NCBI GenBank assembly: GCA_009778325.1
Contig: WRJZ01000026.1
Span: 1-35,506 of the forward strand
From: Candidatus Endomicrobium neocapritermitis
GTDB taxonomy: Bacteria; Elusimicrobiota; Endomicrobiia; Endomicrobiales; Endomicrobiaceae
DNA: 35,506 nucleotides
Direction: 5' to 3'
Shown here: positions 1 through 30,113 of the stretch, piece by piece
Position numbering within the stretch: the stretch's first letter is position 1
Layout of the letters: every line of letters starts with the position of its first letter
The notes under the pieces: generated by a model
The model's database searches: none
Seen by the model: only the letters and a program-made list of their open reading frames with translations
What the model was told of the DNA's origin: nothing
Position numbers and translations under genes: made by a program

Positions 1-122
1 AGTTAATAGTTAATAGATAATAACTAATAGTTATTGAATTTCGGCGAAGCCGAAATCTATTAATAGGTTTTCGCTTCGCGAAAACACCGAAACTATTACC
101 TATTATCTATTAACTCTTAACT
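1..122. repeat. Palindromic intergenic element E1 (heptad arms, two hairpins)
   Basis: The left arm is a 7-bp tandem array (TAATAGT, TAATAGA, TAATAAC, TAATAGT) and the right arm, 90-122, is its inverted partner. Between them are two perfect hairpins, TTTCGGC-GAA-GCCGAAA at 39-55 and GTTTTCGC-TTC-GCGAAAAC at 67-85, joined by CTATTAATAGG. The element may begin upstream of the window. Its right arm contains the aconitase stop codon and last codons. Confidence 0.85.
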
Positions 123-2035
123 GTCGTATTCTTTATCCAATTTAAAAGCCCGCCGGCGAAAAGAATCTCTTTCTGTCTTTTTGTTAAATCGTAGTTTAAT
201 TTTATCTCTTTTCCGCTGACCTTAGCGCTGAGCGGCTTGCTGTTTTCCAATATACTTTTTATGTTTTCAAATTTTATATCGTCATTAAGATTTATGCCGT
301 CATAATCCGCGGGATTTGAAAATGTCAGAGGAAGTATACCGAAATTTATTAAATTTGCAAGATGTATTCTCGCAAACGATTTAACAAGAACAACCTTTAT
401 GCCCAAATATCTCGGCGCAAGAGCGGCATGTTCCCTTGAAGAGCCCTGCCCGTAATTTTCGCCGCCGATTATTACGCCGTTTTTAATTGTTTTTGCTCTT
501 GCCGCAAAATCTTTATCAACCGCGGCAAAAGTGTACTCTGAAATTGCCGGAAGATTTGACCTCAACGGCAGAATCTTTGCTCCTGCCGGCAAAATATGAT
601 CCGTCGATATATTATCGCCTGTTTTTAAAGCGATCTTTCCTTCTATGCTTGCTTCCATCGGTGTAAAATCCGGCAACGATTTTATGTTCGGCCCTTTTAT
701 AACCTCAACTTTTGAACCGTCTGCCTCCGGCATCAGAAACTGTTTATCGTTAACATAAAACTTCTCAGGCATTTTTATATTAGGTTTTTTTCCGAAATAT
801 TCCATGGGATCGGTTATTTCGCCTGTTAACGCCGCTGCTAAAGCGGCTTCCGGAGAGCAGAGATATACACGGGCGTCTTTTGTTCCGCTTCTGCCTTCAA
901 AATTTCTGTTAAAAGTTCTTAGCGATACCGCTCCGCTTTTAGGAGCCTGCCCCATACCTATGCATGGGCCGCACGCGCTTTCCAAAACTCTGGCGCCGCT
1001 TTCTATAATACTTGTAAGCGCGCCAGACTGTGAAAGCATTGTCATAACCTGCCTTGAGCCAGGAGAAATCACAAGGCTGACATTTTTGTTTATCATCTTA
1101 TCTTTCAAAACTTCCGAAGTTAAAAGCATATCCGAAAGAGAAGAGTTTGTGCAGGAACCTATGCCGACCTGGTCGACTTTTATTCCTTTAACGTCTTTAA
1201 CTTTTACGACTTTATCAGGCATATGCGGAGCAGCTATCAAAGGCTCCAAAGTATTTAAATCGATTACGATTTCCTGGTCATACTGCGCGTCTTTATCGGC
1301 AACTATTTCCGTCCAGCTTGAGCCGCGCCCCTGCCTTTCAAGAAAATCTTTAGTTATATCGTCAGACGGGAAAACGCTTGTCGTAGCGCCGAGTTCCGTA
1401 CCCATGTTTGTTATGGTAGCCCTCTCGGGAACTGACAATGTCCGCACGCCTTCGCCGGCAAATTCGTATATTTTTCCTCTTCCGCCTTTAACGGTTTCAA
1501 TGCGTAAAAGTTCAAGAATAATATCTTTCGCGCTTACCCACTCTCTTAATTTTCCTTTAAGATTGACTTTAACTATTTTCGGCATAGTTATATAGAAAGG
1601 CTGCCCTGCCATAGCGCACGCAACGTCAAGCCCGCCAGCGCCGAAAGCCAGCATGCCTAAGCCGCCGCCCGTGGGAGTATGCGAATCCGAACCGATAAGA
1701 GTCATCCCCGGAACGCCGAATCTTTCAAGGTGCACCTGATGGCAAATACCGTTTCCTGCGGGAGAAAAAACTATGCCGTACTTCGCGGCTATGGTCTGCA
1801 AAAATTTGTGGTCGTCGGCATTTTCAAAGCCGGACTGAAGCGTATTGTGATCTATATAGCTTACGGAAAGTTTTGTTTTTACTTTCGGCACGCCCATGGC
1901 TTCAAACTGAAGATATGCCATTGTTCCGGTTGCATCCTGCGTCAAAGTCTGGTCTATTTTTAAACCTATTTCTTCCCCTATTTTCATCTCTCCGCTTAGT
2001 AGATGGTTTGCAAGAATTTTCTTTGAAACGTTCAC
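110..2035 (-). CDS. acn: Aconitate hydratase
   Basis: Interconverts citrate and isocitrate in the TCA cycle with a [4Fe-4S] cluster; cytoplasmic. The 641-residue length fits the short, single-chain bacterial aconitase type rather than the roughly 890-residue AcnA. Expected cluster cysteines are visible at C295 (GSCTNSS) and C355/C358 (ACGPCIG). The N-terminal part has SDSHTPTGGG near 116-125, and the C-terminal swivel domain has GQGSSREHAALAPRYLG. The start is GTG (CAC at 2033-2035 on the plus strand) with GGGGAT about 8 bases upstream; no better ATG precedes it. A promoter-like pair lies at 2068-2096. The last residues (VKS) and the stop are encoded by repeat element E1. Identification is by motif and length and is close to certain. 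Confidence 0.97.
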   Translation of the reverse strand: MNVSKKILANHLLSGEMKIGEEIGLKIDQTLTQDATGTMAYLQFEAMGVPKVKTKLSVSYIDHNTLQSGFENADDHKFLQTIAAKYGIVFSPAGNGICHQVHLERFGVPGMTLIGSDSHTPTGGGLGMLAFGAGGLDVACAMAGQPFYITMPKIVKVNLKGKLREWVSAKDIILELLRIETVKGGRGKIYEFAGEGVRTLSVPERATITNMGTELGATTSVFPSDDITKDFLERQGRGSSWTEIVADKDAQYDQEIVIDLNTLEPLIAAPHMPDKVVKVKDVKGIKVDQVGIGSCTNSSLSDMLLTSEVLKDKMINKNVSLVISPGSRQVMTMLSQSGALTSIIESGARVLESACGPCIGMGQAPKSGAVSLRTFNRNFEGRSGTKDARVYLCSPEAALAAALTGEITDPMEYFGKKPNIKMPEKFYVNDKQFLMPEADGSKVEVIKGPNIKSLPDFTPMEASIEGKIALKTGDNISTDHILPAGAKILPLRSNLPAISEYTFAAVDKDFAARAKTIKNGVIIGGENYGQGSSREHAALAPRYLGIKVVLVKSFARIHLANLINFGILPLTFSNPADYDGINLNDDIKFENIKSILENSKPLSAKVSGKEIKLNYDLTKRQKEILFAGGLLNWIKNTTVKS

Positions 2036-2067
2036 TTGTTTTATCCCCTTTTTTATGTTTTTCAGTA

Positions 2068-2096
2068 ATTTTACTATATTACGAACGTATCTTCAA
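2068..2096 (-). promoter_or_regulatory. Putative sigma-70-type promoter of acn
   Basis: On the minus strand TTGAAG (2091-2096) is followed after exactly 17 bases by TAAAAT (2068-2073). Initiation would fall near 2061, giving a leader of about 26 bases containing the GGGGAT ribosome binding site. Confidence 0.55.
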
Positions 2097-2170
2097 ACGT
2101 ATAATGGAAGAAGATGAGACGCTGTGATGTGAGAGATGTTGAGAAGCGGAAAAATAAATAAAATTTGAAC

Positions 2171-2701
2171 TTACTCGCTCAATCTTTCGTTTTCTTCTTT
2201 TTTTATTTCCTGAAATTCGGCATTATTCGCAATCAACGCCTTTACAAGCAGCCTTGAAACTTTAGGAATTTTCATAACTTGAAGAAAATTATCTTTTGCA
2301 AACTTGGCAGCATAGTAATTTGCATAAGCCAAATACGCTTCTCCGAGTTTTTTACCATCTTCATCCATTGCATCCCAGTTTTTAGAATTATAAAGCTCAT
2401 AATATTTTTGGCTCGCTTCCAAATCGTTTGCAAAGTTTATTTCTTCCGTTGTCTGAGCAATAATATCTTCATATTTTTTCATTTCCTGAGCTTTTAACTC
2501 TATATTACTGTCCAAAAAGTTCTGATACTCGTGTATTTCGGCATCGGTTGCCTGCGCAGTCTTAATTTCTTTAATATAGGAAGCATTGCTATGGACTACT
2601 CTGTAAACACATGAACCGATTTGGATTAAAAGCAATACAAATATCACAGCGGATGTGATAAGCACTATTTTCAAGGTACTGTTATCTTTCTTCTTATTCA
2701 T
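2171..2701 (-). CDS. Small membrane-anchored helical protein of unknown function
   Basis: I do not recognise a family. The 176-residue product starts with a short positive stretch (MNKKKDN), then one hydrophobic segment at about 11-32, then a charged, probably all-helical domain rich in Ala, Glu, Lys and Tyr. This suggests a single-pass inner-membrane protein with the bulk outside the cytoplasm. One Cys lies at the end of the membrane segment (IGSCVYR) but is not in a good lipobox. The ATG at 2699-2701 has a strong AAGGAG 8 bases upstream. It lies 81 bases downstream of clpB on the same strand, so it could be co-transcribed with it, but nothing in the sequence ties it to protein quality control. 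Confidence 0.8.
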   Translation of the reverse strand: MNKKKDNSTLKIVLITSAVIFVLLLIQIGSCVYRVVHSNASYIKEIKTAQATDAEIHEYQNFLDSNIELKAQEMKKYEDIIAQTTEEINFANDLEASQKYYELYNSKNWDAMDEDGKKLGEAYLAYANYYAAKFAKDNFLQVMKIPKVSRLLVKALIANNAEFQEIKKEENERLSE

Positions 2702-2782
2702 GACAAACTCCTTTTGCTTTTATATTTATTGTTTAATTGTTACTTAACTGTCTTTTTGCAGTTGATTTGCAATTGCCTTTAA

Positions 2783-5395: not shown

Positions 5396-5407
5396 AATTA
5401 CCTCCGG

Positions 5408-5516
5408 ATAAAGGCAAATAATAGAGAAAAGATAACAGATACAACTAACAACGTAATTTATGCAGTTGCCGTATCTATTCTCTATTATCTCTTATCTATT
5501 CTCTGTTATTTTACGT
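5408..5516. repeat. Palindromic intergenic element E2 (heptad arms)
   Basis: The arm read on the minus strand is a clear 7-bp tandem array (AACAGAG, AATAGAT, AAGAGAT, AATAGAG, AATAGAT), and the opposite arm has matching units (AATAGAG, AAAAGAT, AACAGAT). The centre, about 5435-5473, lacks the two perfect hairpins of E1 but carries GTTGCCGT. It lies between clpB and the 3' end of cysE and overlaps the cysE stop. Confidence 0.75.
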
Positions 5517-6168: not shown

Positions 6169-6174
6169 GTTGTG

Positions 6175-6183
6175 ATTATAACA
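6175..6183 (-). promoter_or_regulatory. Extended -10 promoter, likely leaderless cysE transcript
   Basis: The minus strand reads TGTTATAAT (TG-n-TATAAT) ending 7 bases before the A of the cysE ATG at 6168. Initiation at the usual distance would start the mRNA at or within a base of the start codon. A convincing -35 is not seen, as is common with extended -10 promoters. Confidence 0.55.
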
Positions 6184-6205
6184 AAAAAACAAGCAATAAG
6201 AAACA

Positions 6206-6340
6206 ATTAACAATTAACAATGAATAATTAATAATTATTGTATTTTTGCTTCACAAAAATCTATTAATTAGGTTTCGCTTTAGCGAAACTCCTGAATTAT
6301 TCATTGTTATTTGTTAATTGTTAATTGCCGTTTACTTGCC
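6206..6340. repeat. Palindromic intergenic element E3 (heptad arms, two hairpins)
   Basis: The left arm has units AATTAAC, AATTAAC, AATGAAT, AATTAAT; the right arm (about 6293-6332) is the inverted partner and ends ATTGCCGTT. The first hairpin, ATTTTTG-CTT-CACAAAAAT-like at 6242-6260, is degenerate; the second, GTTTCGCT-TT-AGCGAAAC at 6272-6289, is perfect. The linker is CTATTAATTAGG. It lies just upstream of the cysE promoter. Confidence 0.85.
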
Positions 6341-6341
6341 G

Positions 6342-6374
6342 TTAAAAAAGCCCCGGCAGGATTGCCGGGGCTTT
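6342..6374 (-). terminator. Intrinsic terminator of the lysine-rich protein operon
   Basis: A perfect 12-bp GC-rich stem (AAAGCCCCGGCA / TGCCGGGGCTTT, 6347-6374) with a 4-base loop, followed on the minus strand by a run of T (6342-6349). It lies 35 bases past the stop of the gene at 6409-6759. Confidence 0.9.
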
Positions 6375-6408
6375 CAAAGGTTTAAAGAAATTTCATTTCG
6401 AAGAAATG

Positions 6409-6759: not shown

Positions 6760-6787
6760 TGTACACCTCCTGTTTTTGTTGTGCGGC

Positions 6788-7042: not shown

Positions 7043-7083
7043 ATTTTATTGTTTTCTTTCTTTTAATTTTATTAACTGCCAAA

Positions 7084-7112
7084 ATTGTATAAATTTTATT
7101 AAATATTGTCAA
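7084..7112 (-). promoter_or_regulatory. Sigma-70-type promoter of the HTH/lysine-rich operon
   Basis: On the minus strand consensus TTGACA (7107-7112) is followed after 17 bases by TACAAT (7084-7089). This is the best match to the sigma-70 consensus that I found in the window. Initiation would be near 7077, 35 bases before the HTH start codon. Confidence 0.75.
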
Positions 7113-12395: not shown

Positions 12396-12406
12396 AAACC
12401 CCAAAA

Positions 12407-12542
12407 AGACAATTACGAATTACGAATGACGAATTACGAATCAACAACAACGGCAACTGCAAACAGCTTTTGCCTTTTATTAATAATTCATAATTGTCTT
12501 TTTGTCTTTGCCGTTGATTCGTAATTCGTAATTGCCGTTATC
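12407..12542. repeat. Palindromic intergenic element E4 (heptad arms)
   Basis: Left arm: units AATTACG, AATTACG, AATGACG, AATTACG, AATCAAC, then AACGGCAA. Right arm (about 12485-12540): TTGCCGTTGATTCGTAATTCG-like units ending ATTGCCGTTA. The middle has ATTATTAATAATTC-like palindromic sequence instead of the two C/G hairpins. The right end abuts the argS stop codon. The same arm sequence recurs inside the TPR gene at 15150-15210. Confidence 0.85.
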
Positions 12543-14212: not shown

Positions 14213-14250
14213 TTATTTGCTGTTTATTCGTAATTGGTAATTGCCGTTTT
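14213..14250. repeat. Single-arm remnant E10 of the intergenic element
   Basis: On the plus strand ATTCGTAATTGGTAATTGCCG followed by TTTT matches the right arm of E4 (heptad ATTCGTA/ATTGGTA and terminal ATTGCCGTT). No inverted partner is seen. It lies between the argS start and the nitroreductase stop. Confidence 0.6.
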
Positions 14251-14763: not shown

Positions 14764-14884
14764 ACAGAGTGAAGATTGAAGAGTAGAGAGTGAAGATATT
14801 GAATTTCGGCTTCGCCGAAATCTAATTAACCGGTTTTCGCAAAGCGAAAACACTATATCTCCACTCTTCAATCTTCACTCTTTT
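14764..14884. repeat. Palindromic intergenic element E5 (heptad arms, two hairpins)
   Basis: Left arm units AGTGAAG, ATTGAAG, AGTAGAG, AGTGAAG; the right arm (14853-14883) inverts them (CTCTTCAATCTTCACTC-like). Hairpins: TTTCGGC-TTC-GCCGAAA at 14804-14820 and GTTTTCGC-AAA-GCGAAAAC at 14833-14851, linker TCTAATTAACCG. Its hairpins match E1 while its arms have unrelated sequence. Confidence 0.88.
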
Positions 14885-16084
14885 TTATTTTATTTCAAAA
14901 GGTATTTCATTAATGTTTACATCCGCGAGGTTAGCCCCCAGTGAATCCGCTTTATTTAAATCTACGCGCGCGCTTCTTAAATCTTTCTGCGCTTCTTTAA
15001 CAAGAGCTCTGGCAAGATACGCTTTACCGTTTCTCGGCTGCATTGCTATAACTTTATCCAAATCATCTTGTGCACTCGCGTAATCGCCTGTTCTGTTTTT
15101 TGCAATAGCGCGGTAAAAGTATAAATCCGCTTTTTTAGGGTTGATATTTATTGCCGTTGTCGTTTGCCGTTGATTCGTAATTCGTAATTCGTAATTTGTA
15201 ATTGCCTTTGTAAAGTATTCTACGGCACTTTGAAAATTTCCGATATTGTATTCGATTACGGCCGCATAGTAATACGCTCTGTAGTCTTTAGGCGCAAGCT
15301 CCGCGAGCTTTTCCAAATCGCTCAAAGCTTTTTTGTAATCTCTCATCTTATACCGTATTTCCGCCCGCTTCAAATATGAATCCGGAGATTTAAAAGTATA
15401 ATTTTCCGCTTTATCGTACTCTTCCGTTAAGCCTGCTCTTTTGAGCTTTCTTTGGACAATTTCAAAATTTTCATAAGCTTCGTCAAAATCAGGGTCTTTT
15501 TCTATAGCCTCAAAATAATCCATGGCAGCCGCGGCATTTTCTTTGAGCTGCTCTTTTGCATACCCTCTGCTAAAATATATATCCGCGCTTACGGGATTAA
15601 GCTCCAACGCCTTATCAAAATCTTTCAAAGCTGATTTCCATTTCTTCAGGCTAAATTTGGCGTTTCCTCTTGTAAGGTATGCGGCGCCTATCTGAGGATT
15701 ATACTTTATTGCTTTATTGCTGTCTTTGACAGCTCCTTTATAATCGCCAAAAACGTATTTTATTGCCGCGCGGTTTGCGTACGCGTCGGCGTCTTTTTTA
15801 TCAAGCTGAATAGTAATGTCATAATCTTCCAGAGCGCCGGCATAATCGCCCAAAGCGGCTTTAATATAAGCGCGCATACAATAAAGACCGGCAGACCACG
15901 GCAGAATATTTACGGCTTTATCCAAGTTTTCTTTTGCGGCGGCATAATTTCCTGCCGCTAAAAACGCATTCGCGGCATTCACATAACCGGCAGCTTCGCC
16001 CTTTATTTCTTCATGCTGATGCGAGCAAAAAGCATTCAATGCCAGGCAAATAAGCGCAAAAAAGATAATGACTGTTTTTTTCAT
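14885..16084 (-). CDS. Exported TPR protein carrying an in-frame repeat-element insertion
   Basis: About 399 residues from the ATG at 16084, chosen over one at 16105 because GGGGA precedes it and the protein then begins as a clean signal peptide (MKKTVIIFFALICLALNAFC). The Cys lacks a good lipobox, so lipoprotein status is uncertain. The rest is an array of roughly nine TPR units (AYANRAAIKYVFGDYKGAVKD, AYLTRGNAKFSLKKWKSAL and so on), a protein-binding scaffold probably in the periplasm. Between two TPRs, after VEYFTKAI, the phase is broken by TNYELRITNQRQTTTAI, encoded by a repeat-element arm at 15150-15210; the next TPR resumes with NPKKADLYFYRAIAK. A promoter is seen at 16114-16142. It is divergent from uvrD. 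Confidence 0.9.
   Translation of the reverse strand: MKKTVIIFFALICLALNAFCSHQHEEIKGEAAGYVNAANAFLAAGNYAAAKENLDKAVNILPWSAGLYCMRAYIKAALGDYAGALEDYDITIQLDKKDADAYANRAAIKYVFGDYKGAVKDSNKAIKYNPQIGAAYLTRGNAKFSLKKWKSALKDFDKALELNPVSADIYFSRGYAKEQLKENAAAAMDYFEAIEKDPDFDEAYENFEIVQRKLKRAGLTEEYDKAENYTFKSPDSYLKRAEIRYKMRDYKKALSDLEKLAELAPKDYRAYYYAAVIEYNIGNFQSAVEYFTKAITNYELRITNQRQTTTAININPKKADLYFYRAIAKNRTGDYASAQDDLDKVIAMQPRNGKAYLARALVKEAQKDLRSARVDLNKADSLGANLADVNINEIPFEIK
15150..15210. repeat. Element arm E11 inserted inside the TPR gene
   Basis: GCCGTTGATTCGTAATTCG here is identical to 12510-12528 in E4; heptads ATTCGTA repeat three times and TTGCCGTT occurs twice nearby. In the minus-strand reading frame it encodes about 17 extra residues (TNYELRITNQRQTTTAI) without breaking the frame. 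Confidence 0.85.
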
Positions 16085-16113
16085 TAATTTCCCCGGTGCT
16101 GTCATTACCGTTA

Positions 16114-16198: not shown

Positions 16199-18445
16199 AT
16201 GATAAATATTCTAACAGAAAAATTAAACCAATCACAAAAAGACGCCGTATTATGCACTGAAGGCCCACTGATTATTTTTGCGGGAGCCGGTACCGGCAAA
16301 ACAAGAGTAATAACGCACAGGATAGCATATCTGCTGTCGCGAGGCGTTCCTCCATGGTCAATTTTAGCGGTAACTTTTACAAATAAAGCCGCAGCAGAAA
16401 TGAAAAAAAGGATATCTGCTATTTTTCCGGACGGCGCCAATGTGTTGACATCGACATTTCATTCTTTCTGCGCTTATTTTTTGCGCGTAGAAGCTTCAAA
16501 AATAAATTTAAGCCCGGATTTTTTGATATACGATTTTTCCGACCAAAAAAATGTCATTAAAGACTGCATAAAAGAACTTAATCTTGATGAAAAAAAATTT
16601 AAACCTTCAACAATAGCCGACAGAATAAGCCGCGCTAAAGACGATTTAAAGTTTCCTTCGGACATGGCGGCTGACGCCGAACATATAGGCGATTTTTTCG
16701 GAACAGCCATTGCGAAAGTTTACCAGCTATACCAAAAGAAACTTGAAATGGCGCAGGCTCTTGATTTTGGCGATCTCATAATGAGAACAGTTACGGCTTT
16801 GCAGCAGTATCCCGCGCTGCTTGATCATTATCAGCAAAGATTTAAATATATTTTAGTAGATGAGTATCAGGACACAAACCACGCGCAGTACATGCTTGCA
16901 AAACTTTTGGCTGAAAAACATCATAATATATGCGTGGTGGGCGATGATGATCAGTCTGTGTATTCATGGCGCGGTGCAGACATAACGAATATTTTGGATT
17001 TTGAAAAAGATTATCCTGAAGCAAAATCCGTAAAACTTGAACAGAACTACCGTTCCACTCCAAAGATTTTAACGACTGCGTGGCAGGTGGTTAAACATAA
17101 CATCGGAAGAGTAGAAAAAAAGATTTGGACTGAAAATCCGGACAGCGGTTCCGTCTCGGTGGTGAAAAACGACAATGAAAACGACGAAGCAACAAGAGTT
17201 GTGGACATAATCGCGTTAAATACGCAGGACGGCAAATATAAGCTTTCGGACTTTGCCGTTTTTTACCGTACAAACGCACAGTCTCGCGCTTTTGAAGACG
17301 CTTTCAGAAGAGCGGGAATGCCGTACGCGGTTATCGGAACTTTAAGGTTTTACGACCGCGCTGAAATTAAAGATATTATGGCTTATCTTAAACTTATACA
17401 TAATCCCAACGACAATGTGAGCCTTAAAAGAATAATCAATATACCGCGAAGAGGAATCGGAAAAATTTCAATAGAAAATCTTGAAAAAGAAGCTGTAAAA
17501 AGAGGTTTGTCCATATGGCAGACAATACCTTTTGCCGCGGAGGCAGGACTAAACAAAGGAGCAATTTCCGCGTTTAGCTCTTTTGTAACGCTTATTAAAG
17601 GATTTATAAGTTTAAAAGAAAATGAAAGCGTAAAATATATAGCCGAAAAAGTTATAACGCATTCCGGATATTTAAAAGAACTTGAAACGGAAGACACTGC
17701 GGAAGCTAAATCAAAAATAGAAAATATTCAGGAATTAATTTCCGCTATAGATGATTTTGAACACCGTTCCCCGGATAAAACGCTTTCCGGCTATTTAACC
17801 CAAATTGCCTTGGTAAGCGATATAGATACTTTGGACGAATCGCAGGGGAAAGTTACGCTGATGACACTTCATTTGGCAAAAGGGCTTGAGTTTGAAAACG
17901 TTTTTGTCTGCGGACTTGAAGAAGGATTGTTTCCTATAGGCGAATCAGCGTTTAATCCTGAGGAGCTGGAAGAAGAAAGAAGGCTTATGTATGTTGGAAT
18001 GACAAGAGCGAAAAAACATCTGTATCTTTGCTGGGCAAGCGAAAGAACCGTTTACGGAAAAACAAGATGGAATATGCCGTCCAGATTTATTGCCGAAGCT
18101 GGTTTTAAAGACGAATTTGCCGAGCGGGAGCCGAAGGGGCAAAGCCCCTTTAACAAGAACAACTTTGGTTCTAAAAAAGCTAAATATAGCTATAAAGACG
18201 ATGAAAGTTATGATTATATTCCTTCGGATGATGAGATAATTAAAGATGAACCTCTTTACACGCCGACAGCTGACAACAGTCCCTTCAAAATAGGCGATAT
18301 TGTTTCCCACGCTGTTTTCGGAAAAGGCAAGATTATAGAAAAGTCCGGAGTAGGCGACGATTTGAAGCTTGTCGTATTATTTGAAAACGGACAGTGGAAA
18401 AAATTATTGGCTAAAGTAGCGAATTTAACGGCAATTAACAATTAA
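16199..18445 (+). CDS. uvrD: UvrD/PcrA-type DNA helicase
   Basis: Superfamily 1A 3'-5' DNA helicase acting in nucleotide excision and mismatch repair and in clearing replication blocks. 748 residues, the usual UvrD/PcrA size. Motifs: Q-motif LNQSQKDAV, Walker A AGAGTGKT (28-35), Ia TFTNKAAAEMKKR, II VDEYQDTN (220-227), III GDDDQSVYSWRGA (248-260), IV EQNYRSTPKIL, V TLMTLHLAKGLEFENVF, VI EERRLMYVGMTRAKKHLYL. The C-terminal tail (about 695-745) is the Tudor-like RNA-polymerase-binding tail (GDIVSHAVFGKGKI). In the linker before it a palindrome at 18134-18151 encodes PKGQSPF. The last residues TAINN and the stop lie in element E6. No ribosome binding site precedes the ATG. Confidence 0.97.
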   Translation: MINILTEKLNQSQKDAVLCTEGPLIIFAGAGTGKTRVITHRIAYLLSRGVPPWSILAVTFTNKAAAEMKKRISAIFPDGANVLTSTFHSFCAYFLRVEASKINLSPDFLIYDFSDQKNVIKDCIKELNLDEKKFKPSTIADRISRAKDDLKFPSDMAADAEHIGDFFGTAIAKVYQLYQKKLEMAQALDFGDLIMRTVTALQQYPALLDHYQQRFKYILVDEYQDTNHAQYMLAKLLAEKHHNICVVGDDDQSVYSWRGADITNILDFEKDYPEAKSVKLEQNYRSTPKILTTAWQVVKHNIGRVEKKIWTENPDSGSVSVVKNDNENDEATRVVDIIALNTQDGKYKLSDFAVFYRTNAQSRAFEDAFRRAGMPYAVIGTLRFYDRAEIKDIMAYLKLIHNPNDNVSLKRIINIPRRGIGKISIENLEKEAVKRGLSIWQTIPFAAEAGLNKGAISAFSSFVTLIKGFISLKENESVKYIAEKVITHSGYLKELETEDTAEAKSKIENIQELISAIDDFEHRSPDKTLSGYLTQIALVSDIDTLDESQGKVTLMTLHLAKGLEFENVFVCGLEEGLFPIGESAFNPEELEEERRLMYVGMTRAKKHLYLCWASERTVYGKTRWNMPSRFIAEAGFKDEFAEREPKGQSPFNKNNFGSKKAKYSYKDDESYDYIPSDDEIIKDEPLYTPTADNSPFKIGDIVSHAVFGKGKIIEKSGVGDDLKLVVLFENGQWKKLLAKVANLTAINN
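18134..18151. repeat. GC-rich hairpin inside uvrD
   Basis: AAGGGGC-AAA-GCCCCTT is a perfect 7-bp stem (with flanking A/T pairing) within the uvrD frame, in the poorly conserved linker between helicase core and C-terminal tail. Compare the argS hairpin at 13607-13630. Confidence 0.65.
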
Positions 18446-18556
18446 CAAATAATAATTAATAATTATTGTGTTTTCGCAATGCGAAAACTTATTAATAGGT
18501 TTCGGCAAAGCCGAAACACCGACATTATTATTTGTTATTAATTATTAATTGTCGTT
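18426..18556. repeat. Palindromic intergenic element E6 between convergent genes
   Basis: Left arm AACGGCAATTAAC then AATTAAC, AAATAAT, AATTAAT; right arm inverted, ending AATTGTCGTT. Hairpins GTTTTCGC-AAT-GCGAAAAC (18470-18488) and GTTTCGGC-AAA-GCCGAAAC (18499-18517), linker TTATTAATAG. It spans the ends of both uvrD and the convergent gene at 18545 and would fold into a long stem in either transcript. Confidence 0.9.
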
Positions 18557-18861: not shown

Positions 18862-18968
18862 CAGAAGCTCAGAAGTTCGGCAGCTCAGCAGCTCAGAGAA
18901 GCTCCGGTCGCTTTGTCTTTATTTTTTGACGTTGCCGAGCTGCTGAGCTGCCGAACTTCTGAGCTTCC
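18862..18968. repeat. Palindromic intergenic element E7 (octad arms)
   Basis: Left arm units of 8 bp: GCTCAGAA, GTTCGGCA, GCTCAGCA, GCTCAGAG. The right arm (about 18932-18967) is inverted: GAGCTGCTGAGCTGCCGAAC-like and then TTCTGAGCTTCCG, a long near-perfect match. The centre holds TTTGTCTTTATTTTTTGACG. It sits between divergent genes and would form a stable stem in the leader of the 18545 gene. E9 has related arms. Confidence 0.85.
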
Positions 18969-19687: not shown

Positions 19688-20999
19688 TCTTCGTAAGCTT
19701 ATAGCAGAGCGTTTCCCGAAATTCGGAACAAATAAAGCGCGAGAAATACTCAGGCTTGTGTTCGAAATATCAAAAAAAGAAAATCTTTCTCCCGACGAAA
19801 TAATCGGCTTAATCAAAGAACAAGATTATGAAAAGGTCAAAGATCTTCTGCTGCAGCGCAGATATCCCGAGAGCTTTGCCAAAATGCCGCGAAATTCATT
19901 TTATCTTCCCAAGCTTGAATTTAACGAATCTTTCAAAGCTGATGTTTCAGAGTCAAAATTCAACCCGAAAAATATTTTTTACACGAAAGAAGCTTCCCTG
20001 TCTCATTTATTCCGAAAAATTAAAAATCTGTTTCCTTCGGCCGCTTACGCGGAAATAGAATCTTTAAAATCTTTTTTAAAAAACAGAACTTTTTCCGTCA
20101 AAGATTATAACAGCCGGACCGAAAACTTATTTCTCATTGAAGAAAAATACGATTTCTTCAAAAAATGCCCGTGCACTTCAAATGTCGTAAACTGCGGATA
20201 TTCGATAATGAATCTCGGCATGGGGTGCCCGTATGAATGCAGCTACTGTTTTCTTCAGGGATACCAGAATGTGCCCGGAATAATTTTTCCATCCAACATT
20301 GACGATTATTTACGGGAAGAGAAGATAGTTCCAAACGCAAAAGGATTTTTTAATTATAAAAGAATAGGCAGCGGCGAATTCACGGACTCTCTTGTTTTTG
20401 ACGATATAACCGAATTTTCAGCGCCTATTGTAGATTTTTTTAAAAATCGTCCCGACATATTTTTTGAGTTTAAAACAAAAAGCGTTAATATCAACAACCT
20501 GTTAAACGCCGGGGGCGCGGAAAATATTGTCGCGGCCTGGAGTGTGAATTCTTTAAAGATACAAAAAGAAAACGAATTTAAAACGCCCGGCATAAAACAA
20601 AGGCTCGACGCGGCCAAAAAATGCGCGCAAGTGGGCTTTAGCACGGCGTTTCATTTTGACCCTATGATACCTTACGCGGGCTGGAAGAAAGGATATAAAG
20701 AAACAGTGGACATGATTTTCGACACAGTACCGCACAACAGCATAAAATGGATAAGCCTTGGCGCTCTGCGCATGCCGGCGCAGTTGAAAACCGTCATAGA
20801 AAACAGATTTCCGGAAAACAAAATTCTTGACGGCGAACTTCTTTTGGGCAAAGATTACAAACTTCGCTATGACGCCGATATGAGAGCCGAAATTTACAAA
20901 TTTATAAACGAAGCCGTTAAATCAAAAAAATCAAAAGCGGTTGTTTATTTATGCATGGAAGAAAGCTCGGTATGGAAAAAATCAATTAATAATGAATAA
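19677..20999 (+). CDS. Spore-photoproduct-lyase-like radical SAM protein
   Basis: 440 residues. The radical SAM cluster motif CPYECSYC gives C184, C188 and C191 (CX3CX2C). LGMGCPYECSYCFLQGYQN, the FEFKTKSVNINNLL strand, VAAWSVNSLK and GFSTAFHFDPMIPYAGW are typical of the spore photoproduct lyase (SPL) family. Known SPL reverses the thymine dimer 5-thyminyl-5,6-dihydrothymine in spore DNA. Here the region near 229-238 reads RIGSGEFTDS, where spore-former SPL carries its hydrogen-donor cysteine, so the chemistry may differ. An N-terminal helical region of about 160 residues is longer than in Bacillus SPL. The start overlaps the preceding gene by 11 bases. The last residues SINNE and the stop are in element E8. 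Confidence 0.87.
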   Translation: MLNNLRKLIAERFPKFGTNKAREILRLVFEISKKENLSPDEIIGLIKEQDYEKVKDLLLQRRYPESFAKMPRNSFYLPKLEFNESFKADVSESKFNPKNIFYTKEASLSHLFRKIKNLFPSAAYAEIESLKSFLKNRTFSVKDYNSRTENLFLIEEKYDFFKKCPCTSNVVNCGYSIMNLGMGCPYECSYCFLQGYQNVPGIIFPSNIDDYLREEKIVPNAKGFFNYKRIGSGEFTDSLVFDDITEFSAPIVDFFKNRPDIFFEFKTKSVNINNLLNAGGAENIVAAWSVNSLKIQKENEFKTPGIKQRLDAAKKCAQVGFSTAFHFDPMIPYAGWKKGYKETVDMIFDTVPHNSIKWISLGALRMPAQLKTVIENRFPENKILDGELLLGKDYKLRYDADMRAEIYKFINEAVKSKKSKAVVYLCMEESSVWKKSINNE

Positions 21000-21116
21000 T
21001 TAACAATTAATAATTATTGTGTTTTCGCTTTGCGAAAACTTCTTAATAGGTTTCGGCAAAGCCGAAACACCGACATTATTATTTATTAATTATTAATTGT
21101 TAATTGCCGTTAATAG
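20981..21116. repeat. Palindromic intergenic element E8 between convergent genes
   Basis: The core is nearly identical to E6 over some 80 bases: GTTTTCGC-TTT-GCGAAAAC (21021-21039), TCTTAATAG linker, GTTTCGGC-AAA-GCCGAAAC (21050-21068), then ACCGACATTATTATTT. Left arm units AATTAAT, AATGAAT, AATTAAC, AATTAAT; right arm inverted and ending ATTGCCGTTAA. It contributes the stop codons of both the radical SAM gene and the MORN gene. Confidence 0.9.
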
Positions 21117-23553: not shown

Positions 23554-23597
23554 ATATATCCTTAAAAATTTACAGACATTTGTTACTTTGCGTATAG

Positions 23598-23626
23598 ATT
23601 TTACACTTTTAGAGGCTGTTTTTCAA
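23598..23626 (-). promoter_or_regulatory. Sigma-70-type promoter of proB and the MORN gene
   Basis: On the minus strand TTGAAA (23621-23626), exactly 17 bases, TAAAAT (23598-23603). Initiation near 23591 gives a leader of about 38 bases. Confidence 0.6.
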
Positions 23627-23642
23627 CGGCAGCTAAACGTCT

Positions 23643-26600
23643 TTACGCCGATTTAAGCATCATACTTACGGCAAGCTTGTTTACCGAAACGTTTACGGCA
23701 TCTTTTATGAATTCACTTGCCGGTTTATGTTCGGCAAGAGCAAGAATTTTAATAATTTCTTCTAATGCCGATTTTTCATCGTCCGCTGACTGTAAATTGC
23801 CGTTCACAGGGATTCCGTATCCGAAATTTATTTCAGAAAGATGGGCTCTCATCAACAGTTCTACATTTTTAATTATTTCGTTTATTGTCGCGCCGTTATT
23901 TTGCAGCGTATATATGTAAAGCGCGTAATCTGTAAAACTTTTTGCCGCCTGTCCGCCGTACTCTTCTTCAAGCATTGTTTGAAGCATTTCATCGGGAGTC
24001 ATACCGCTTAACTTTGCGGCGGTATGTACGGCAGGTTCTTTTTCGCCGGATGCTTTTGCGTCTTGCGGCATTGATAAATCTAAAAACAGAAGAGTTCTGA
24101 GCAGCTCAGATTGCTGAGTATCGCTTAAACCGTTGTCCTTTCTAAAAGACGAAAGGAGCGACGCTTCAATTGCCCCGCGCAAATATCCCGCCGCTGCATA
24201 GATTCCGTTCTTATTGTTTCCGGCAAGCGAATCTTGTATAAAACGAAGCTTTTTTATTCCGGGCTCAGCTTCCAGAAAACCGACAAAATGTTTTGCCGCT
24301 TCTTCATCAATTTTTATGCCTTGCCTGAGAGATTTGCCGTTTTGAAGTTTGATAAGCTCCTGAACAAGAAGCTTATTTGTATCGGTTCCGGTTTTAAGTT
24401 CGTCTTTGCTTTGAAGTCCGGTTTTGTATCCTTCAGCATATGCTTCATACGGAGAAAGAGTTCTGGGCAGCGAAAGGATTTCCGTTATTTTGCTCATTAT
24501 TTCTACATGAACGCTCTTGCCGTCAGCGCTTATTATATTAGTTCCGGCAGACACTCCTATGTATCCTGCGCCAAAAGCAACGGCTTTTTGTATATCGGCA
24601 AAATATTTCTCTGCATCTGATTTATACTCTTCATCCAAAGGATTTGCATCCGAAGAATTTTCATCCGAAGGATTTATATCCGCCCATATTTTCTGCTTAA
24701 ACTCTTCAAGATTTTCGTTAAGATTGGCAACGCTTAAAGCCGTTATAATGTCAAGATTTGACGCATTTTCAACAAATTCTCTGACAGCCACGGCAGACAA
24801 CAATGAGGAAGGAAGCCCTGCCATAATAATAGAATCGCTTTTTACTTTTCTCATTTGCGCGGAAACAGCGATGAATAAGGAATTGTTATTTATCATTTTT
24901 TCAGAAGCAAAATTCATTCTTATTCCGTCAAAACCGACGCTTTGCCAGAAAAGCGCGGCCTGTATTATATCGTCCCTTTTCATTTTGCCGGATATGTTCA
25001 GCGAAAGCACAACTTTTCCGCCATTTTTATGTATTTCTTTAAGATTTTTACTTATTTGAGACGTTAAAATAAATTGCGCGAACTGTTCTGCCGGCGAAAT
25101 ATCGTTATCTTTTAAATGTCTGTTTGCATTAACAAATTTTTCAAAATCGGATTTGACTTCCGCGCTGATTTCGTTAAACGCTTTTTCTGAAATCGCAAGC
25201 GATTTTGCCCTTACATCCTCTATATCGCCGCCGTATATGTTTATTTCGCTTTCGCTGATTTTTACGCCCGCAGCCATTTGCGCCGCCGAAGCCCAGTCGA
25301 TAAGCGCGATATCGGCTATGGCGGGATTATCGCTCATTACGGCATCTTCAAGAAGCATTATTGACGAAACCGACTGCCTCATCCTATTTTCAAAATAAGA
25401 CGAAAGCCCGTTTACTCCGTAAGAAGATAAAGGAGCCTCGGAAGCGCTGATAAGGCTGAATAACTTCGAACTTATTTTTTCGCCTACGATAATTCCCGAT
25501 CTGCTCTTTGATTCTTTATCTTTCAGAACAAGCCTTTTGAGCACTTCAAGCATAAAAGTTCTTGTCTTATTTTTATTTCCAGATATGTCATAATAATTCA
25601 GTTTACCGTCGTTTCTTCCGGCAGCCTCCGCTGATTTTCGTATATCTAATGCGTCAGGAAATATTTTTGTGACCGCTCCGGCAAACTCAGACATATTTTT
25701 ACCGTCAAAAGCGAATGCTTTTAAATCAAAGTCATATTCTTTTCCTATCATTCTAAAAAGACTCTCGTTTGAAATAAAATTTATAGCTCTTTCAAGGAGC
25801 GAAATACCACTCGTTAAATACGCGAATTTTCCTTTAACGACATAATCGTTTTGAAGCCTGTTTAAAACTTCTTCGGAAGCTTTAACATAAAATTCTTTCG
25901 GATTCATTTTCGTTTCAAATTTTAACGGAACCATAGCAATGACGGGAATATTATTTTCCATACGCAGGTATGCTTCCGCCGTAACCGCTGCTCCGTTCAT
26001 GTCAACATTGACATAACACAGTCTGTTACGGTCATTGGCAACGCCTTTTTTTCCTATTCTTAAAGCCAGAGGCTTTACGCCGAAATCTTTCAGTTTTGCC
26101 AGCCTGTCGGAATCTATATTAGAGTCAGACATTGCGGCGTCTACGAAAATTTTTCCGTAAAGCATGTGCCCGCCGGGCGACTCGGCTCTTTCGGTTTCAA
26201 GAAGCCATAGTTCGTTTTCGGATATGGATAAAGCGTTTTTCATCCGCTCAAGAACAGTTAAAGAGCCCAGCGCGTTTTTCATTGTTTCGCCGTACACGCT
26301 TACAACAGCCTTACTTTGCAAATGACTGATAATTTGCGAGAAAAAGTCTTCAGAGCGCGGATTATTAATTATTTTAAGCCACAAGATAAGAGAATCCGCA
26401 TTTATCGCTCCGGCATTTTTTATCTGTTCCATTACATAATCGATGTCCGGATTTTCAGCGGCGGATATCGCCGCAAGCAGAAGAACGGTAAAAGCTTTTT
26501 GGTCGCGGTTTAATCCTTCATCTTTTAACATCCGTTCCAAAACCGGCTTTAGCGCAGGGGTAATGTGTTTTCGGTCTTCATTTAGAAATCTGAACGCGGT

Positions 26601-29600
26601 ATTAATCCTGTCATGCATAAACGACGCGCTTGATTCTGCCGCCCTGATACTTTCTTCTATTCCGCGCGCATATTCTTCGGAAAGTTGCTCCGTCGGATCA
26701 TTTTCTTCAAGCAGTTCTTTAACATACGTCGACGGCAATATTCTTACAACGCCGTGTTCGGACCCTCTCACAAAAAAAGCTGTTTCTCCGTCAAAAGCAT
26801 TAGCCTGGCGGCTTATTTTCAAAACGCCGTTTTTGTCTATAATACCGTCCATAGTATTGAGATATACCAACATACGCAAATGAAAAGGTATCAGCATAAA
26901 TGAAAACGGATTGGCTTTATATCCTAACTCTTCATATCTGCTGTCGGCAAAAGACTTCAAAGCTTCAGGCTGAGTAAAAAGAAAAACATGTCCTCCGAAA
27001 AAACTCGCAATACCCCTGACAAAATATTCAGGCAAACTCGTAATATACACCTTGCTGCCGGGTGTGTAGGCTAGAGAGTTCAATACTGCTTTATCAAGAA
27101 CCAGTGTAGTGTTATTGTGCAGCTGCGCAGATCCGGAAACAGACAGCTGGTCATCAATTATAATCGGCTCCGCTGTTTTTGCCGGTTCTCCGGACATGCC
27201 TGCGGCAGTATCCGGTTCTTCATCAAACCATGTATCCTCATCGGCACTTGCCGCAGCAGTTTTCTCTCCTTCTTTCTTGGCAGCAAGAGTACTTAGAAGA
27301 CTCTCAAATTTCCTCACAATATTATTCTTTGCAGCTTCATTCTCCTGTATTGAAGCGTCCCTGTAATCTTTCGAGGACGCTCTGATTAGCAATGTCAACT
27401 CAGTATCCGCACCGGGAAGATACTGAGCCTGAAACGCTCTTATCGCATTGTGCCCTCTTTTTGAATCATTGTATTCATTCTTAAAAATTCCGGATAATCC
27501 CGTCTCTTTATGTTCGTCAAAAGGCTCTTTCTTAATAAACCTTTCTCTTTTTTCCGGATCCGTAACCGCAGATTCTATATCTTTAACCTTTATCGCTCCC
27601 TCGGCCAATGCCCAGTGGACAAACTCGTGAAATAACGCAGTATCGTTTGAAAAAAGATCTTTTCTTAAAGCTATTATACCTTCATGCTTTATATTAAACT
27701 TATTAGAAGAAAAACCTCCGATTTCGGCTGTTTTATTTTCTCTGTATCCGCCGGATTCCGCATATGCCGTTTCTATTTCAAAAAACTTTATTCTTTCAGC
27801 CGCTTTGCTGCCGGCGGCTTCCAAAAGAGTTCGTATCGCGCTTTGGAAATCTTTATTTGTATTTTGTTCCGACAAATTGTTCAAAACCGATTTAATCCTT
27901 TCCCTCATGCCAATGCCATCGATAAACCGCCCGCCGATTTCCATTTCACTCAGGCCTGCATCAGAAATCAGAGAGACTGAAAGTTCCGCAACGGCAGGAT
28001 TGGAGGCATTTGTTCCGGCAGTGTAAACCACCGGAGCCGAAAACTTCCCTATAAACCCGCCGGCATTGCCGGATTCGGGCATTGCGTGCGGTGCGGAATC
28101 TACGGTTAAAGATACGGACTTTGTTTTAAAATCATAAATATAGTATGCGGGGTGTTTCCCATAGCCGTAGTAATCGTACATAACGGTAAATTCGACGGTA
28201 TTGCCGGTTACTGAATTTATCGTAACTTCCGCACTTTTTACAGGCTTGTACAAAAGTCTTTCCGCCGCCGAATTTGCTTCTGAGTCTTTTTCGGCAGAAA
28301 CAACAATGCCGTTAATAAGTCCTTCTATTTCTCTTAACGGAATATTGTTTATTGCCGCGCGGTTTATTGTGGACTCTATAATTTTCGGAAGCGCTATTTG
28401 AATAGGTTCGCTTAATACAGGCATTTGCTTTAACGCGCTTGTAAAAACCTGCGTGTATTGCGAGATTACGGAAAAATACAAGTTTTCCGCTTTTTCCGTG
28501 TTTCCGGTAACATTCGGCGTAATTATGATAAAAGACGTTTTATTTTCAAGAAGTCGTTTTTTCAATCCCTCGCTGTGAAATCCGCCCGTTATGGCAATTT
28601 TAATATTGGCGCCTTCAGAGGCATAGTCCATAAGGGCTTTTAAATCGGTAAAATTATTTGAATCCGAATACTCGGTTCCGGCGGTTTCATTTGAACATGA
28701 CAGCAGTGAAAGGAACACATCGTCTCTTTTTATATTGTTAGAGTGATATTTTTCATAATCGGATAATTTTTCTTTTAAATTAGCCAGATGAATGTTTTTC
28801 CCTAAATATTTCGACACTGTTTCATCAAATTTTTTTCTGTTATTAAGATAATACGCATAATCTCCGGATGTTATTTTCGTATTAAAAAAAACGTCTAAAA
28901 CTTTAATGAATCTGTTCAGAAACACGACATCCCTTTCATATCCTGTCCTGGAAAGAGATATGCCTATATCGTGAATAAGTCTGTCTTCTTCCGCGGCAAA
29001 ATTTAAAAGATTCAAATCACCGTTTGTTTTTAAATATTTGAAAAAAGTCGCCAGATTATTCAGCTTATACTGTTTGCAAATACCGTAGCTGTCGGACAAT
29101 GCCGCAAAAACCGGGAATAAGTCTTCCGTATTTGAAAAATCATTGCTTTTTGCGGACAGCTCATGATAAATACCGTAAGGAAGAATTTCTTTTAAAACAT
29201 TTATAAATATACGCAGCTCATCTGTAATTTTTCCGTAATCTATTCCTTTTTCATTTATAAGAGAGATATACTTATGCACATTTGCGTAAGCGTTGATGTT
29301 AATTCCCGCTTTAGATGAAAGCTTGCTCAAAATCGAATAGTATTTTTTCGCGGATATTTTGCCTTTTGAAAAATCACCGTTAAACTTATCAAGCCTCAGC
29401 AAATCCGAATTGTAATACTCTTTTTTTACGGACTGTATATCGTTTTTAAGACCTTTAAGCTCGGCGTTTATTTCTTCACGGTTATTGAATATATTTCCCA
29501 GAAGGAGTATATTTTCAAAATATAAATCGCTTTTATCCAAAGCTTTGATTATATCGGCTTTACCTGATTTTATTGAATAGTATTCCGCCCCGCTGAGCGT

Positions 29601-30005
29601 TCCGTTCACAAGCAAATCTTCAACGACAAGTTTCCCGAGCTCGCTCGTTCTGAAATTTATAAACTTATCCGTGGAAACGTCCGACACGGCGCCTTCAAGG
29701 TATATTTTATCAAAGCCGTATTTTTCCAGAGCTTTCAAAATCGCGGCGATATTTTTCTGGGTTTCGCCGTGGCAGTGTAAATCCTGAATATTTATGACTA
29801 TATCTTTACTGTTAAAATTTTTCGCGTACGTGACTTTTCCCGCAGAGAAAGGAATGAACGAATCGGAAGATTTTATAATCTCGGCTGCGCTGTCATGATT
29901 ATAGCCTGCATAAATTATCTGTCCGAAAACGGAAGAAGCAATAAAACACGCCGCAGTCAATACTGCGGTAATTTTTGTTTTCATGATGTAAGTTTGTTTT
30001 TTCAT
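23643..30005 (-). CDS. Giant exported multidomain protein with GGFH module and HEFVH metallopeptidase-like site
   Basis: 2120 residues. N-terminal signal peptide or anchor (about 8-33, ITAVLTAACFIASSVFGQII). First module, about 60-515: IQDLHCHGETQKNI (73-86), IYLEGA (101-106) and AITGGFHSEGL (471-481). The spacing of H77/H79, E104 and H477 recalls the EreA/ChaN/TraB hydrolase-like superfamily, but I cannot confirm membership. About 580-690 is a beta-rich stretch. At 791-800 LFHEFVHWAL gives an HEXXH zinc motif (793-797) after ITLEG-like text, suggesting a metallopeptidase. A Glu/Ala-rich linker follows near 905-945. About 1660-1830 has barrel-like strands (KVVLSLNISG, GFDGIRMNF, SIIMAGLP, GAGYIGVSAG). 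Function unknown. The alternative start M8 is equally possible. It follows the second giant gene on the same strand. Confidence 0.8.
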   Translation of the reverse strand: MKKQTYIMKTKITAVLTAACFIASSVFGQIIYAGYNHDSAAEIIKSSDSFIPFSAGKVTYAKNFNSKDIVINIQDLHCHGETQKNIAAILKALEKYGFDKIYLEGAVSDVSTDKFINFRTSELGKLVVEDLLVNGTLSGAEYYSIKSGKADIIKALDKSDLYFENILLLGNIFNNREEINAELKGLKNDIQSVKKEYYNSDLLRLDKFNGDFSKGKISAKKYYSILSKLSSKAGININAYANVHKYISLINEKGIDYGKITDELRIFINVLKEILPYGIYHELSAKSNDFSNTEDLFPVFAALSDSYGICKQYKLNNLATFFKYLKTNGDLNLLNFAAEEDRLIHDIGISLSRTGYERDVVFLNRFIKVLDVFFNTKITSGDYAYYLNNRKKFDETVSKYLGKNIHLANLKEKLSDYEKYHSNNIKRDDVFLSLLSCSNETAGTEYSDSNNFTDLKALMDYASEGANIKIAITGGFHSEGLKKRLLENKTSFIIITPNVTGNTEKAENLYFSVISQYTQVFTSALKQMPVLSEPIQIALPKIIESTINRAAINNIPLREIEGLINGIVVSAEKDSEANSAAERLLYKPVKSAEVTINSVTGNTVEFTVMYDYYGYGKHPAYYIYDFKTKSVSLTVDSAPHAMPESGNAGGFIGKFSAPVVYTAGTNASNPAVAELSVSLISDAGLSEMEIGGRFIDGIGMRERIKSVLNNLSEQNTNKDFQSAIRTLLEAAGSKAAERIKFFEIETAYAESGGYRENKTAEIGGFSSNKFNIKHEGIIALRKDLFSNDTALFHEFVHWALAEGAIKVKDIESAVTDPEKRERFIKKEPFDEHKETGLSGIFKNEYNDSKRGHNAIRAFQAQYLPGADTELTLLIRASSKDYRDASIQENEAAKNNIVRKFESLLSTLAAKKEGEKTAAASADEDTWFDEEPDTAAGMSGEPAKTAEPIIIDDQLSVSGSAQLHNNTTLVLDKAVLNSLAYTPGSKVYITSLPEYFVRGIASFFGGHVFLFTQPEALKSFADSRYEELGYKANPFSFMLIPFHLRMLVYLNTMDGIIDKNGVLKISRQANAFDGETAFFVRGSEHGVVRILPSTYVKELLEENDPTEQLSEEYARGIEESIRAAESSASFMHDRINTAFRFLNEDRKHITPALKPVLERMLKDEGLNRDQKAFTVLLLAAISAAENPDIDYVMEQIKNAGAINADSLILWLKIINNPRSEDFFSQIISHLQSKAVVSVYGETMKNALGSLTVLERMKNALSISENELWLLETERAESPGGHMLYGKIFVDAAMSDSNIDSDRLAKLKDFGVKPLALRIGKKGVANDRNRLCYVNVDMNGAAVTAEAYLRMENNIPVIAMVPLKFETKMNPKEFYVKASEEVLNRLQNDYVVKGKFAYLTSGISLLERAINFISNESLFRMIGKEYDFDLKAFAFDGKNMSEFAGAVTKIFPDALDIRKSAEAAGRNDGKLNYYDISGNKNKTRTFMLEVLKRLVLKDKESKSRSGIIVGEKISSKLFSLISASEAPLSSYGVNGLSSYFENRMRQSVSSIMLLEDAVMSDNPAIADIALIDWASAAQMAAGVKISESEINIYGGDIEDVRAKSLAISEKAFNEISAEVKSDFEKFVNANRHLKDNDISPAEQFAQFILTSQISKNLKEIHKNGGKVVLSLNISGKMKRDDIIQAALFWQSVGFDGIRMNFASEKMINNNSLFIAVSAQMRKVKSDSIIMAGLPSSLLSAVAVREFVENASNLDIITALSVANLNENLEEFKQKIWADINPSDENSSDANPLDEEYKSDAEKYFADIQKAVAFGAGYIGVSAGTNIISADGKSVHVEIMSKITEILSLPRTLSPYEAYAEGYKTGLQSKDELKTGTDTNKLLVQELIKLQNGKSLRQGIKIDEEAAKHFVGFLEAEPGIKKLRFIQDSLAGNNKNGIYAAAGYLRGAIEASLLSSFRKDNGLSDTQQSELLRTLLFLDLSMPQDAKASGEKEPAVHTAAKLSGMTPDEMLQTMLEEEYGGQAAKSFTDYALYIYTLQNNGATINEIIKNVELLMRAHLSEINFGYGIPVNGNLQSADDEKSALEEIIKILALAEHKPASEFIKDAVNVSVNKLAVSMMLKSA
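24634..24684. repeat. Short 15-bp tandem repeat inside the giant gene
   Basis: About three and a half degenerate 15-bp copies with the core (T/G)ATCCGAAG/AGGATTT encode the acidic run NPSDENSSDANPLDEE (about 1778-1793). They fall in a loop of the barrel-like part, an expandable in-frame repeat. Confidence 0.65.
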
Positions 30006-30017
30006 TTCATATACCGT

Positions 30018-30113
30018 TTTGGAAGCTTAGAGAGCTTTGAGGCTTAGAAGTTTGGCAAAGACAAAAGCCGTTGCTAAACTTCCAAGCTTCCAAACTTCCT
30101 AACTTCTGCCGTA
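30018..30113. repeat. Palindromic intergenic element E9 (octad arms)
   Basis: Left arm GGAAGCTTAGAGAGCTTTGA, GGCTTAGAAGTTTGGCA; right arm TTGCTAAACTTCCAAGCTTCC and AAACTTCC-TAACTTCTGCC, imperfectly inverted. GCTTAGAAGTTTGGCA here matches GCTCAGAAGTTCGGCA of E7 at 14 of 16 positions. The centre AAGACAAAAGCCGTTG is like the centre of E7. It separates the two giant genes. Confidence 0.75.

Follow-up and report, generated by a model that had tools for sequence, protein, structure and literature searches.

Palindromes whose arms are built of tandem 7-bp units lie between genes in the window analysed here (the whole 35,506-nt stretch, contig C26 of genome G000, a genome of 2.38 Mb in 54 contigs). 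Several of them have the same two-hairpin core, and the question that they raise is how differently worded arms come to frame one core.

Heptad-armed palindromes in the window and the genome

A preliminary description had treated the palindromes E1 to E11 as a single family with one architecture and heptad arms. The architecture is there: inverted arms are present at window positions 1-122, 6202-6327, 12402-12539, 14766-14881, 18436-18552, 18864-18967 and 20974-21108, tandem 7-bp units were detected at 6202, 12411, 15173 and 20984, and inside each of E1, E3, E5, E6 and E8 is a pair of hairpins with CTATTAATAG or a similar sequence as linker (Table 1). The single family is not, since at least three families had been lumped: E9 is a uniform repeat, and E2 and the remnants at 14224 and 15173 form a coreless AATTACG class. 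The genes around the elements are ordinary (aconitase, Clp-type ATPase, arginyl-tRNA synthetase, UvrD). Among named genomes, an Endomicrobium MAG was the one relative in which a protein of the window had a match (66% identity), which makes an Endomicrobium-type bacterium of the Elusimicrobiota very likely as the source. The window also contains two very large ORFs, at 23643-30005 (2120 aa; no Pfam match) and at 30116-35497 (1793 aa), the latter with 192-bp tandem repeats at 31223-31996 and 32183-32775.

Table 1. Palindromic elements and remnants of the window (window coordinates)
Feature	Position	Description	Basis
E1	1-122	Core element, TTAATAG-dialect arms; core hairpins 38-85; begins at contig end	Inverted arms, core model
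E3	6202-6329	Core element, AATTAAC-dialect arms; model match 6235-6296, less regular hairpins	Inverted arms, fold
E5	14766-14881	Core element, GAAGAGT-dialect arms; hairpins 14803-14851	Inverted arms, fold
E6	18430-18554	Core element, AATTAAC dialect; hairpins 18470-18517; left arm holds uvrD ORF end (18445)	
E8	20976-21112	Core element, AATTAAC dialect; hairpins 21021-21068; left arm holds upstream ORF end (20999)	
E2	12402-12539	AATTACG-dialect palindrome without two-hairpin core; AACGGCA/AAAGACA words inside	
One-arm remnant	14224-14250	AATTACG dialect; end TGCCGTT	By eye
One-arm remnant	15173-15207	AATTACG dialect; within predicted TPR ORF 14885-16105	
Coreless palindrome	5418-5509	AGAGAAT-like arms	
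E9	18864-18967	Member of a separate, uniform repeat family with AGCTCAG arms; alignment of 11 copies	
E10	30020-30108	Degenerate palindrome; arms GAAGCTTAG / AACTTCC	By eye

Heptad-armed palindromes are real, genome-wide and not a product of chance. The genome has 85 occurrences of the sequence TTTCGGCnnnGCCGAAA and 0 of its reversed control. Nine copies of the two-hairpin core were used to build a covariance model, which has at least 150 scored matches in G000 (E 3e-15 to 2e-7); the matches listed amount, read by hand, to at least 103 distinct places, and six further cores parsed from fetched stretches bring the count to about 109 places in 2.38 Mb, a figure in which copies at contig ends may count twice and beyond which more may exist. 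The whole-genome search that the preliminary description had proposed therefore carries the elements beyond the window. The 412 kb fetched around matches, a biased sample, contain 207 runs of period 7 (0 after shuffling), none of period 6 and 18 of period 8; at a looser threshold, 182 of the 256 period-7 runs in these stretches are at core places and 74 elsewhere. The same exact 88-nt stretch of one element is found at four contig ends of G000 (C26, where it belongs to window 1-122, C29, C30 and C51), so that identical copies seem to be what interrupted the assembly.

A strict parsing rule yielded 80 cores, of which 76 have complete flanks. A standard copy measures about 132 bp and consists of a cap, four heptads, an 8-nt inner end, a hairpin, a linker, a second hairpin and the inverted half. 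Caps are of the type A-N-N-R-C-A (ACGGCA-like), with CGGCA at 27, CGACA at 13, AGGCA at 12 and AGACA at 11 of 149 ends. Four units make up 109 of 156 arms, five units 19, three units 16 and other numbers 12. The core comprises an 8-bp hairpin with a 3-nt loop, a palindromic linker (consensus CTATTAATAG) and the second hairpin, arranged head to head, and its loops (n = 158) are mostly GAA/TTC (67) or AAA/TTT (58). Among DNA hairpins, d(GCGAAGC) stands out for its stability, so GAA/TTC loops would suit a fold at the DNA level. Predicted DNA folds of the five core elements of the window have z-scores of -6 to -10, with 0 of 200 shuffles as good; the best fold is a stem ending in two separate hairpins in four of them, and in E8 the hairpins pair mutually.

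The preliminary description had also proposed that base-pairing is kept while sequence changes, and for the core hairpins this holds. In a set of 37 equally long cores, pairing holds in 99.5% of hairpin cells, double changes occur at 9 of 16 pairs, and the covariation score is 0.391 versus 0.146 when shuffled, in a test that is partly circular because the cores were selected for having hairpins; further pair types are not raised (14 versus 14.5). Whole stems have been replaced as well, in elements to which this selection does not apply. At two G000 places found by heptads or position and read by eye, C53:34821 has the stems GTGCGC-GAA-GCGCAC and GCGAGGC-AAA-GCCTCGC, and C50:58167 has the stem GCGGGAC-TTT-GTCCCGC; replacements of the same kind occur in G044 (L137:14146 and L139:9807) and in one G050 element, found by heptads or position and likewise judged by eye.

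Distribution and genomic context

A survey of 76 genomes of the family included five of this genus (G000 and G048 to G051) and four of a second genus (G044 to G047). The core is abundant in three of the five (at least 70 matches each in G000 and G049, 69 in G050), with 2 matches in G048 and 0 in G051, and is present in all four genomes of the second genus (at least 70 in G044, 68 in G045, 22 in G046 and 10 in G047). Genomes of three further genera give a weak signal of 1 to 5 matches, and the core was not found in 41 genomes of the g3 genus. Under stricter filters, with 18 candidates per genome, 12 of 294 genomes of the phylum have a core match at E<=1e-4, all in this family. A phage origin was rejected, the exact core pattern occurring 0 times in viral contigs. 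These elements are best read as a non-autonomous, dispersed, REPIN-like palindromic family of two Endomicrobium-type genera whose arms vary independently of the core, a reading to which a probability of roughly one half (about 0.48) is given.

With element ends set 35 nt past the model match, an element occupies the space from the stop codon to the ribosome site, at a median of 14 nt to the start codon and -3 nt to the stop codon. Among 75 genes that enter an element, the gene end lies within the arm by more than 6 nt in 34, at the cap in 27 and outside in 14; in the window, the arms of E6 and E8 furnish the stop codons of uvrD and of the ORF upstream of E8. A universal stop cassette was considered and dismissed, some dialects being without a regular stop when read inward (by eye). 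Two further cores are within predicted ORFs. A second dispersed repeat, CCCTCACCC...CTCTCCCGCAAGGGGCGAGGG, was seen beside or within heptad arms at L138:2865-3039 and, in G000, at C51:65381 and C27:15060.

This closeness to start and stop codons and the gene ends within arms, together with the hairpin double changes and very stable RNA folds (two window elements, both strands, z -7 to -10, again a stem ending in two hairpins), would be in keeping with functional RNA or regulatory structures, such as terminators, processing signals or translation signals, whose fold is under selection. The orientation of the core is no guide to transcription, however, with 8 of 18 typable cores lying with it and 10 against it. 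Core places flanked by genes (n = 96) are divided among co-directional, convergent and divergent pairs (79, 13 and 4) as is the background (201, 38 and 13), sites differ between species, none of five Rfam matches in the window exceeds its gathering score, and the core is nearly or wholly missing in G048 and G051. A role of this kind therefore appears quite unlikely, and the context fits better with elements tolerated in gaps than with oriented signals.

For a dispersed family, the hairpin pair with its CTATTAATAG linker looks like the part that is recognised, much as in a REPIN. Some trans-acting factor would recognise the folded, single-stranded form of the core and could move copies into gaps between genes; survivors would be those copies that lie after the stop codon of one gene and before the start codon of the following gene.

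Arm dialects and how arms change

The arms fall into about seven wordings, or dialects: TTAATAG, AATTAAC, GAAGAGT, TTCAAAG, AGAGAAT, GTGGAGT and AATTACG. Both arms are of one dialect in 68 of 76 elements and of two dialects in 5, with 3 unassignable. Within an arm the outermost heptad is the most constant (GTTAATA in 15, ATTAACA in 15 and GAGTGAA in 14 of 21 arms, for the three dialects with the most members). Counts of one heptad pattern, with its reversed control in brackets, are 105 (33) in G000, 356 (27) in G050, 48 (15) in G044, 42 (4) in G045, 5 (4) in G049, 0 (0) in G046 and 0 (3) in G047; wording thus differs between genomes sharing the core.

The heptads might instead be putative arrays of protein-binding sites, one dialect per protein, with the palindrome merely placing two arrays. 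Their strict 7-bp period, the prevalence of four units, the constancy of the outermost unit and the occurrence of the same dialects with different interiors agree with such arrays; several dialects nevertheless stand side by side in one genome, usage of a single heptad pattern varies as widely between sister genomes as the above counts indicate, and the arrays would be without a known binding protein. This explanation is considered very improbable. In a dispersed, REPIN-like family, the heptad arms would rather serve as a stem of near-constant geometry, their wording being free within a dialect and variable between copies with the same core.

Inner ends are of different types on the left and on the right, and the complementarity of arms was examined without them. 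Compared with arms of other elements of the same dialect, an element's own arms are more complementary, and weakly so, only in TTAATAG (P = 0.007), one of five dialects tested, and are even less so in GAAGAGT and GTGGAGT (P 0.01 and 0.03). Thus, pairing is kept at the level of wording rather than of the unit, and selection for unit-by-unit arm pairing is rejected in all the dialects tested except TTAATAG.

The preliminary description had suggested that arms evolve by slippage. Units within an arm are no more alike than units at the same position of other arms in five of six dialects, the exception being TTAATAG (0.832 versus 0.809 at the same position elsewhere). This lack of homogenisation and the usual four-unit length (109 of 156 arms) argue against slippage as the main driver of arm change, and the suggestion is abandoned in that form.

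Arm change may come from recombination between copies through their shared core, the preferred source, or, as a second choice, from changes made in place to single units. For 69 of 79, the arm most similar to the left arm and the arm most similar to the right arm are in different elements, and where both neighbours are at least 0.94 identical, they belong to the same element in 0 of 11 cases. An exact match of 59 nt between C50:72799 and C52:62216 runs through one arm and breaks off within the core; some long matches of this kind look like recombination. Identical four-unit arms occur in different elements of the TTAATAG dialect (3 pairs versus 0.39 expected from shuffled units, P = 0.013) but are not in excess in GAAGAGT (0 versus 0.43) or AATTAAC (1 versus 0.32, P = 0.27), and in two of three dialects there is almost no association between units at different arm positions. 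Where identical arms are not in excess, discordant arm neighbours may stem from independent unit change, and as proof of recombination they fail in two of the three dialects. These sequence comparisons thus weakly suggest whole-arm reassortment by recombination between copies. It had been argued at the outset that changing arms are not what simple copy-and-paste transposition gives. That stands for the arms, identical ones exceeding chance in TTAATAG only, but not for whole copies: the exact 88-nt stretch of arm and core at two or more loci indicates that copying also happens.

Sites, mobiliser and known systems

Comparison of loci between relatives, likewise proposed in the preliminary description, reveals that sites differ between species. 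At the four testable window sites (E3, E5, E6 and E8), the core is present at 0 of 14 orthologous sites in G048 to G051 (by eye), two of the 14 being poor comparisons, as G049 is split over two contigs at E3 and G051 meets a contig end at E8. These sites are empty or have other content, including other heptad palindromes. Palindromes of other sequence (GTCATTCCCGTGAAAACGGGAAT..., GGGTCTCTCTAAAAACC...) lie inside AATTACG-like arms in G049 (L119/L118) and G050 (L125), at the mbl-argS, argS-nitro and uvrD sites. Between G044 and G045, which are 83-88% identical in nucleotide sequence, presence differs in both directions: at L138:1141 a core element in G045 faces a 22-bp gap in G044, and at L138:15727 a core element in G044 faces a 13-bp gap in G045.

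Other loci bear on whether the sites are old and their arms are rewritten in place, by conversion from other copies, by template switching between palindrome arms or unit by unit, a site's wording then changing with no new insertion. At L138:2819-3084, G044, G045 and G046 have a common interior repeat adjoined by AAAGTG-, AATTAAC- and AGAGT-like arms, respectively; at L136:8173, G044 and G045 have the same interior and different arms, one of them longer; and at L136:9478, wording differs among four species at one point, least between G044 and G046. The five elements with two-dialect arms and the near-independent assortment of units point the same way. However, the interior at L138:2819 is a dispersed repeat in its own right, and at L139:12459 the AATTACG dialect is retained in three species, which argues against rewriting there and indicates that copies can be old and inherited. 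Nor are co-occupied sites in excess. By a strict period-7 criterion, both genomes are occupied at 4 of 33 junctions of G044 and G045 (one only at 7 and 3, P = 0.19) and at 2 of 36 junctions of G044 and G046 (one only at 9 and 1, P = 0.22), so re-occupation of orthologous sites beyond chance fails this count. Moreover, a stop-to-start gap leaves little choice of position, and repeated insertion would give the same picture as rewriting. Old sites with arms rewritten in place are accordingly regarded as possible, if somewhat unlikely.

The preferred reading, a dispersed family mobilised in trans, leads to the question of the mobiliser. Target duplications longer than 2 bp did not exceed shuffles in 69 elements; among 30 tests, one 2-bp offset gave P = 0.004 and one test P = 0.022. 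TA-specific insertion was discarded, with T at -8 in 62 of 149 ends. Across the 76 genomes, matches to Y1 (REP-type) transposases number 3 in G000, 2 in G049 and 1 each in G044 and G046, and genomes poor in cores or devoid of them have matches too; none was detected in core-rich G045, in G047 or in G050 (70% complete). Four stretches around Y1 genes contain no core.

The Y1 genes examined (L164-L169) encode 250-286 aa, one being cut. Five of the six have another palindrome upstream, and in three a matching inverted copy lies downstream. Those three are flanked by inverted TGTCAAGGGGACG-like / CGTCCCC-TGACA-like ends, and two more have the upstream copy, one of them cut by a contig end; the gene at L165 has neither end and is preceded by an AATTACG heptad palindrome. 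Y1 genes between TGTCAAGGGGACG-like ends are a different element type. A Y1 transposase was thus rejected as mobiliser, since its presence does not track the elements and five of six genes go with other palindromes. The earlier proposal of a non-autonomous family without a known mobiliser is upheld: sites differ between species, and no mobiliser was found in this search.

REPINs, or tagged REP dimers, are similar in several respects. As characterised in the relevant passages of PMC3116915 and PMC3733652, they too are high-copy and intergenic, consist of two short inverted hairpins, show double changes in their stems and encode no protein of their own, and the 8-bp stems and 3-nt loops found here fall in the range published there for GTAG sequences. 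Two short inverted hairpins form a unit in both. The REPIN tag described there is GTAG, whereas the tag beside the hairpin here is ATAG in 66 of 156 cases, GTAG in 4 and any TAG in 82. REPINs as portrayed in those passages have conserved ends and a variable spacer; the present elements have a conserved centre and variable outer arms. REPINs also have a linked RAYT, a tyrosine transposase, and here no RAYT gene tracks the elements. The plan is that of an inside-out REPIN, with the conserved part in the middle, and a family of near-constant architecture that seems to work most like a REPIN turned inside out would be a new form of small non-autonomous palindromic repeat.

Tandem 7-bp units between genes are also the hallmark of the heptamer direct repeats (for example, TAACTGA) of Beggiatoaceae, Cyanobacteria and Bacteroidetes, which, according to the sections of PMC4679880 that deal with them, are present in two to 43 copies, often lie near start codons and change in 7-nt steps between strains by a mechanism not known; such repeats are also treated in part of PMC6749651. 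The repeats depicted in PMC4679880 are direct and variable in length, whereas those described here are inverted, mostly of four units, of many wordings and accompanied by a structured core. Heptamer repeats in distant phyla thus lack an evident mechanism in that account (PMC4679880), and here they form the arms of an element that is folded and dispersed, can be counted and has a conserved core, which makes their origin testable. Some process that swaps or rewrites heptad arms in place, keeping the core and the four-heptad geometry, may also underlie the heptamers of Cyanobacteria, Bacteroidetes and Beggiatoaceae, a proposal that is speculative and rather unlikely to hold in full. In Nostoc, small dispersed repeats of 21-27 nt, reported by Elhai et al. 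in 2008, are said to be structured, often to lie within heptamer arrays and to be mobile. These repeats are not known to have inverted heptad arms of constant geometry.

No description of heptad-armed core elements was found in searches of an open-access library, which is not proof of absence. In the Endomicrobia genome paper PMC11257099, the terms palindromic, intergenic and repeat appear only in a CRISPR/IS methods passage and in references. MITEs, which derive from DDE transposons, are likewise short, palindromic, non-autonomous and dispersed; the core elements differ from them in that no target duplication longer than 2 bp accompanies them and only a loose cap is common to copies whose arms differ. 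The family to which E9 belongs, palindromes of about 110 bp with no clear target duplication by eye in 11 aligned copies, looks more MITE-like than the core elements: its arms are near-constant, and its copies have a common terminal inverted repeat.
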